NCBI GenBank assembly: GCA_029071285.1
Contig: JAIEAS010000083.1
Coordinates: 1-11,149, forward strand
Length of the DNA stretch: 11,149 bases
Source of the DNA: Clostridia bacterium
GTDB lineage: Bacteria > Bacillota > Clostridia > Christensenellales > Borkfalkiaceae
Reading direction: 5' to 3'
Shown here: positions 10,665 through 11,149 of the stretch, one piece after another
Layout of the letters: each line of letters begins with the position of its first letter
How positions within the stretch are numbered: the stretch's first letter is position 1
The notes under the pieces: model-generated
What the model was told of the DNA's origin: nothing
Seen by the model: only the letters and a program-made list of their open reading frames with translations
Databases searched by the model: none
Program-made: the position numbers and the translations under genes

Positions 10665-10737
10665 CGAATTGCTCCGTACCGTCATTGCGAGGGGTTTTTG
10701 TCATTCTGAACGAAATGCTCCGTACCGTCATTGCGAG
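10665..10737 (+). repeat. 27-bp direct repeat with 46-bp period
   Basis: CGAATTGCTCCGTACCGTCA and its continuation ATTGCGAG at 10665-10691 recurs at 10711-10737 with one mismatch (T/A at the fifth base). Each copy ends in the GTCATTGCGAG terminus of the dispersed palindromic repeat. The first terminus is orphaned; the second continues into a full element. Between them is GTCATTCTGAACGAA (10700-10714), typical of another widespread repeat family. This suggests nested insertion or partial duplication. Confidence 0.7.
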
Positions 10738-10825
10738 CGAAGCGAAGCAATCCAGGAGCGCGGCATTTAAAATGAGCTTTTCGTCTGGATTGCCGCGTCG
10801 CTACGCTCCTCGCAATGACGATAAG
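10726..10825. repeat. Dispersed palindromic repeat, copy 2 (GTCATTGCGAG family)
   Basis: Inverted arms run from CGTCATTGCGAGCGAAGCG to CAATCCAG near 10755, and from CTGGATTGCCGCGTCGC at 10785 to CGCAATGACG at 10820, followed by ATAAG as in copy 1. The centre is AT-rich and of nearly the same length as in copy 1 but differs in sequence. The element sits in the divergent region between the leftward membrane protein gene and the rightward terminal gene. Translations of it are spurious. Confidence 0.87.
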
Positions 10826-10929: not shown

Positions 10930-10958
10930 TTGAAAATGTCGAAAATCCATGTTATAAT
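10930..10958 (+). promoter_or_regulatory. Near-consensus promoter of the terminal gene (extended -10)
   Basis: TTGAAA at 10930-10935 and TATAAT at 10953-10958 are 17 nt apart, with TG one base before the -10 (TGTTATAAT). The predicted start is near 10965, with a leader of about 39 nt to the ATG at 11004. Confidence 0.85.
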
Positions 10959-11003
10959 TTTAGCACTTAATTTTCATAGTATAGTAATGAGGAGAAAAGC
11001 AGA

Positions 11004-11149
11004 ATGAAAAGAAACAGCAACTTTACCCGCATAGGGGGGGGGGCAGACACTTTCTGATTTAAGGCAAAGCAAAAGGCTTTGGCTATCTTTAATCTTGTCA
11101 TTTTTATGCGCAGCATTATTATGCTGTGCTTTTGTATTGCCTTTTTCGG
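11004..11149 (+). CDS. 5' part of a secreted/membrane protein gene, frame broken at a poly-G tract
   Basis: ATG 11004 is preceded by GAGGAG at 10989-10994 (9-nt spacing) and a strong promoter. As written, the frame reads MKRNSNFTRIGGGADTF and stops at TGA 11055-11057, 17 residues. If one G is removed from (or two are added to) the G10 run at 11034-11043, the frame continues MKRNSNFTRIGGG-QTLSDLRQSKRLW-LSLILSFLCAALLCCAFVLP and stays open to the window end. That is a basic N-region followed by a hydrophobic helix, as in a signal peptide or anchor, and it resembles the start of the surface protein at 171 in type. The gene continues beyond the window, so the mature product is unknown. The break could be real (phase-off state or pseudogene) or a homopolymer error. 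Confidence 0.75.
11034..11043 (+). repeat. G10 homopolymer tract within the coding start
   Basis: Ten consecutive G residues begin at the eleventh codon of the terminal gene. A tract of this length is prone to slipped-strand mispairing. Lengths of 9 or 12 put the downstream signal-peptide-like frame in phase with the ATG; 10 and 11 give early stops (TGA at 11055 in the present state, TAA shortly after with 11). Confidence 0.9.

Follow-up and report, generated by a model that had tools for sequence, protein, structure and literature searches.

A start-proximal poly-G tract and the probable phase variation of a large surface-protein family in uncultured Clostridia

Does a run of ten guanines a few codons past an ATG act as a genetic switch, or is it the trace of a misassembled, decaying or frameshifted gene? 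The run lies close to the end of the window, the 11,149-nucleotide stretch of DNA analysed here, which is the complete contig C341 of a 358-contig, 1.54 Mb MAG, so that the tract-bearing gene is cut by the contig end. Taken together, the evidence makes it very probable that a phase-variable gene begins at this locus and that it encodes a large, secreted surface protein with a membrane anchor. Slipped-strand ON/OFF switching at the level of translation is the mechanism we strongly favour for the multigene surface-protein family to which it belongs, and we infer the same mechanism at the window locus from sequence comparison.

The window gene and its relatives in the same genome

The 5' end of the gene, read on the forward strand, begins with a -35 element (TTGAAA, 10930-10935) and a -10 element (TATAAT, 10953-10958) separated by a 17-base spacer, followed by a ribosome binding site (GAGGAG, 10989-10994) with the ATG 9 bases on. 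Ten leader codons (MKRNSNFTRI, 11004-11033) run directly into the G10 tract (11034-11043), the proposed switch, for which 27 other copies have a homologous counterpart of 8-12 G. At the present tract length, the ATG frame yields the 17-residue product MKRNSNFTRIGGGADTF and is closed by a TGA at 11055-11057. The frame starting at 11044 reads QTLSDLRQSKRLWLSLILSFLCAALLCCAFVLPFS and is open up to the contig end at 11149, beginning with a signal peptide-like segment in which the positively charged QTLSDLRQSKR is followed by a strongly hydrophobic part, including a 19-residue stretch with a mean hydropathy of 2.75. This part of the window (11044-11149) matches the N-terminal profile of the family at an E-value of 2.1e-12, the profile including a row from the same stretch. 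Among 200 dinucleotide-shuffled versions of the window, 0 contain a G10. A sequence-only reading of this DNA had described a promoter, ribosome binding site and ATG leading into G10, an ATG frame that closes soon afterwards and an open, signal-like frame offset from that of the ATG; all of these elements were found, with the run measuring exactly G10.

Upstream of the gene, the region 10677-10823 contains inverted repeats, with arms at 10677-10692 or 10723-10737 pairing with 10808-10823, which are perhaps a dispersed palindromic element. A similar stretch sits upstream of a tract-less copy on contig C61 (L189).

A 50-base query covering the ribosome binding site, leader and tract start, with up to three mismatches allowed, retrieved two sites in the genome, the window and contig C238. 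The C238 paralogue differs from the window at 2 of the 50 bases and carries a G11 tract, behind which a 1634-codon body lies out of register with the ATG. Apart from this paralogue, the other runs of at least ten G in the genome are confined to contigs C62 and C189, in each case within 83 bases of the contig start. Contigs C328 and C60 share their opening 77 bases, without a difference, with the end of the window (11073-11149, forward strand; positions 1-77 of L066 and of L069), and their frames remain open for 1478 and 1515 codons, respectively, encoding surface-protein bodies that differ from each other. The overlap reflects either an assembly branch or two genes with a common 5' end; where the assembly branches at this overlap, the window's own body could be that of C328 or that of C60. 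The product had been proposed to be a surface or secreted protein, and the contigs that carry on the window sequence appear to encode secreted, membrane-anchored proteins of the surface type, in agreement with that proposal.

The long proteins of this genome fall into two subfamilies, one tract-bearing and one tract-less. In both, a signal peptide precedes divergent ectodomains, and proteins whose C-terminus is present also have one transmembrane segment and a charged, Q-rich tail that finishes in a conserved motif (transmembrane segment and tail judged by eye). The tract-less subfamily (MKIKSRNLLTV... and variants) is represented in the window itself at 171-2726 on the forward strand, by a gene with the C-terminal anchor and tail motif of the family, and by twelve others in the genome, all with open frames. 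Homologues that lack the tract and also carry further stops, the sign of a plain pseudogene, were looked for; tract-less relatives exist, but their frames are open and they form a separate subfamily.

Tract lengths and reading frames across the genus

Tract-bearing copies with a readable ATG number 28 in seven species, with one genome examined per species: two in G000, three in G039, two in G019, 12 in G108, three in G105, two in G022 and four in G119. They were found with the pattern ATGAN{8,38}G9, which matches 37 of 93 genus genomes but is noisy, with non-zero reversed controls, and was used solely for finding copies. The tract, sitting 23-33 bases past the ATG throughout, measures G8 in one copy, G9 in six, G10 in 15, G11 in five and G12 in one, these being assembly lengths and thus uncertain. 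Only the six G9 copies are in frame, leaving 22 of the 28 out of register, and in-frame and out-of-register copies occur side by side in G108, G105 and G119. The body is open for at least 262 codons in 20 copies; the remaining eight are cut by contig ends, degenerate or, on contig C321 of G105, interrupted by an extra frame break 35 codons downstream, near the contig end. Both wrong frames close 3 and 5 codons past the tract in 26 of 28 copies, the two exceptions, on G019 C271 and a degenerate copy ending G108 C14, having no readable body. This count excludes G105 C289, where a G10 tract is present but the contig start truncates the leader, as well as the interrupted versions found in G038 and in G130.

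The best genome for this purpose is G108 (99% complete, about 30 contigs), in which 12 tract copies and 19 N-terminal profile matches were recorded. Three of the 12 copies (C7, C17 and C20) are in frame, corresponding to three exact G9 runs, all of which are located at family gene starts. Runs of at least ten G mark eight family starts, among them a degenerate one near a contig end (C14, at 38653). One more such run is in a promoter spacer, and six are at places inside artefact stretches no more than 95 bases from the ends of C9 and C12. With these contig-end artefact stretches excluded, 11 of 12 runs of at least nine G in this genome coincide with family gene starts. Across the genus, a profile of the segment after the tract, built from 13 rows, matches 16 of 93 genomes (E<=1e-3), and the translational family is therefore not general.

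In the proposed mechanism, slipped-strand mispairing during replication would add or remove a G. In the ON state, translation would run through the tract into the signal peptide; in the OFF state, it would stop no more than five codons past the tract in either wrong frame, and the window would have been caught in this OFF state. As many such genes are present per genome, each with a separate tract, a population is proposed to display shifting combinations of surface proteins. Counting tract lengths in related genomes had been suggested as one test of this idea, and the homologues indeed carry the tract at 8-12 G, with both in-frame and out-of-register alleles. The earlier proposal of an ON/OFF gene captured OFF accordingly gains support, at the level of sequence, from the 28 copies, their range of lengths and the open bodies behind out-of-register tracts.

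If every true tract were nine G and the departures from nine arose in sequencing or assembly, the genes would be plainly ON. Poly-G is error-prone, and in many of the sister contigs the sequence breaks off at the tract with an artefact run that matches the "G's end" effect outlined in PMC9187656, where caution over annotated G-tract lengths is also advised. This explanation would nevertheless have to account for lengths of 8, 10, 11 and 12 in the 22 out-of-register copies, drawn from seven separate assemblies, alongside six copies with 9 G in three of the same assemblies, G108, G105 and G119 holding both states. Errors at a majority of loci would be unusual, whereas from a mixed population an assembler picks one length. 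We therefore regard error as quite unlikely, and the window's G10, judged by the second copy in its genome and by the relatives, as more than a lone assembly slip.

Where the sister contigs end at the tract, they do so in long C runs on the coding strand, which are probably products of the Illumina "G's end" effect outlined in PMC9187656. This artefact would explain the runs on C62 and C189 and the poor assembly of the family. Contig-end G or C runs (C62, C189; L161, L162, L165, L166, L172, L173, L179, L183, L194) were considered as further tracts, rejected and excluded from all counts, because they are G runs when read outward and, in family copies, lie on the wrong strand where the true tract should begin.

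Decay of pseudogenes left by an expansion of surface-protein genes would fit the out-of-register majority (22 of 28), the few copies that are broken elsewhere (L077, L085) and the interrupted tract in G130. Fourteen out-of-register copies, however, keep bodies open for 541-1883 codons, the tract and leader are retained in seven species, and in-frame copies exist, which together render general decay extremely unlikely. G130 C65 (L195), with the interrupted tract GGTGGGGG and out of register, may itself be a decayed copy.

A third alternative is that transcriptional slippage or ribosomal frameshifting carries expression across the tract, so that full-length protein is made at a constant low level for any tract length, with no heritable switching. 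Long G runs can in principle slip in transcription or translation, and wrong-frame stops close behind the tract fit such slippage or frameshifting and switching alike. The lengths, however, range over 8-12 with no single retained value, one relative in G038 is in frame without a G run, and the poly-G runs in promoter spacers of related genomes cannot act by frameshifting. We consider this alternative unlikely and retain heritable slipped-strand switching as the preferred reading.

The G038 relative on C99 (L186) reads GGGGGAGGA, with mixed Gly codons replacing the G run; leader, Gly-Gly-Gly and signal peptide follow one another in a single unbroken frame of at least 186 residues. Its unbroken reading shows that leader and body constitute one protein. 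The database proteins P0003, P0004 and P0006 are likewise in-frame versions composed of leader, GGG and signal peptide.

Poly-G runs in promoter spacers and across the order

A second class of poly-G locus was first seen among other runs of at least nine G, some of which lie between -35 and -10 boxes (L201, L206, L210, L211, L214, L218). A spacer pattern (TTGAC, up to 11 bases, G8, up to 9 bases, TAHHAT) gave 33 matches in 22 of 93 genus genomes and 0 with the reversed pattern. In the order, represented by an even sample of 297 genomes with ten from the window's genus, it gave 266 matches in 67 genomes and 26 of 125 genera, a few overlapping at one site, and again 0 when reversed. The pattern has 0 matches in the window's own genome. 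Spacers of 15-20 bases account for 27 of the 33 genus matches, with 47% expected from an even choice of gap lengths, and in one orthologous promoter the spacer measures 17 bases in G022, 16 in G105 and 15 in G119. Of the 33 genus loci, 30 were fetched (L221-L250), 25 having a downstream gene by the rule applied; 15 of these 25 match a simple pattern for a lipobox-like N-terminus, this being a raw count. A poly-C form of the spacer has two genus matches (G015 C20:18442-18471 and G127 C8:43278-43304) and 0 when reversed. The arrangement points to transcriptional phase variation, to judge from promoter sequences.

The start-proximal pattern is found in 28 of the 297 order genomes with reversed controls that are non-zero, and for this reason we do not extend the translational class to the order as a whole. 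Fifteen of the order-level start-proximal stretches were fetched, none of them counted as family members; G192 contributes five copies and the others are single genes. The five copies of G192, a genome from another family of the order (L280-L284), carry a leader resembling MKRDITHI followed by G10-G12, leading only into short frames or the contig end. Single start-proximal G9-G10 tracts occur elsewhere in the order (L285 in G229, L288, L290, L292), some in secreted or lipoprotein-like genes, and one such gene, beginning MIPKLIHYVWL..., we take by resemblance to be glycosyltransferase-like. Two pattern scans of viral contigs returned 0 matches.

Combining both classes, we find it reasonably likely, with less confidence than for the window locus, that a two-tier poly-G contingency system operates across the order. 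Start-proximal tracts in some species would switch arrays of giant surface proteins translationally, spacer G runs would tune transcription of lipoprotein and membrane-protein genes in several families, and each cell would thereby carry a random surface combination.

The encoded proteins and comparison with known systems

In in-frame copies, the tract is read as glycines and is followed by the signal peptide and a body of ~1300-1900 residues, with one transmembrane segment and a charged, Q-rich tail at its C-terminal end. The signal peptide is followed by A-x-A in all 13 aligned pieces, which were cut to end there. An LPxT[GA] motif is absent from P0001-P0007 and from the final 450 residues in 18 bodies, of which four are truncated ahead of the C-terminus. 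The single Pfam match above the curated cut-off is DUF6273 in P0007, others falling below it, and a search of solved-structure sequences with P0001 gave 0 matches. The 260-residue stretch before the transmembrane segment is predicted to be β-rich (mean pLDDT 74.8; model from a 7-row alignment). In the PDB, this model best matches a fragment from the Aureispira grappling hook protein (E 1.2e-4, low TM-score), and further, weak matches include tandem Ig-like, S-layer, cadherin and other chains, some unrelated, with TM-scores below 0.3 among the 50 matches listed. The model is consistent with, and weakly suggestive of, an Ig-like stalk. Surface location and function are putative for the family proteins, which may serve in binding or help the cell to evade phages or immunity.

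If this interpretation is true, it is at the starts of these surface genes that short-read MAGs of the species concerned break and are mis-called, and the family loci become targets for tract-length counts in existing read sets. Repeat-driven phase variation has been described chiefly in pathogens adapted to a host. The restriction of multi-locus phase-variable genomes to pathogens is discussed in the review PMC11868660, which lists bias of the genome databases among the possible causes. A start-proximal poly-G family and widespread poly-G spacers in uncultured Clostridia bear on this question of pathogen restriction. Poly-G phase variation in such Clostridia was not found among the titles and abstract openings of open-licence literature, which does not prove its absence.

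A close parallel in logic is Neisseria opa, a set of many unlinked paralogues with pentamer repeats in their first codons that encode outer-membrane β-barrels. In both systems, paralogues each carry a repeat in the first codons, which in the family described here would likewise act as a switch and vary the surface combination; this family differs in its poly-G tracts, its very long single-pass proteins and its Clostridial host, as opposed to pentamers and Gram-negative β-barrels. For the second class, the counterpart is Neisseria porA and opc, in which a G run between the -35 and -10 boxes sets promoter strength at a few genes. The spacer G runs proposed here follow the same principle but involve many promoters across an order.

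Campylobacter poly-G and poly-C loci are mostly glycan and flagellar modification genes, unlike the one large paralogous surface-protein family found here. They are nonetheless similar in G length, in being many per genome and in their surface functions, as outlined in PMC8355987 and PMC4965091. In the Gram-positive commensal Bifidobacterium breve, an intragenic G tract of about ten decides pilin production, and populations hold several lengths, according to the account outlined in PMC9187656. A G tract of ~ten in a Gram-positive setting is shared with that switch; the two sortase-dependent pilus clusters of B. breve (PMC9187656) differ from the many paralogues, start-proximal tract and transmembrane anchor seen here. 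The 5' poly-A tract of Listeria inlA, as outlined in PMC2831843, is likewise a homopolymer close to the start that cuts a surface protein short within a few codons, in that case an A tract of 6-7 in a single gene, in contrast to poly-G in many paralogues. The logic is that of known SSR contingency genes, seen here in a lineage for which we found no such description, with an unusual protein family and an extra class of poly-G promoters.
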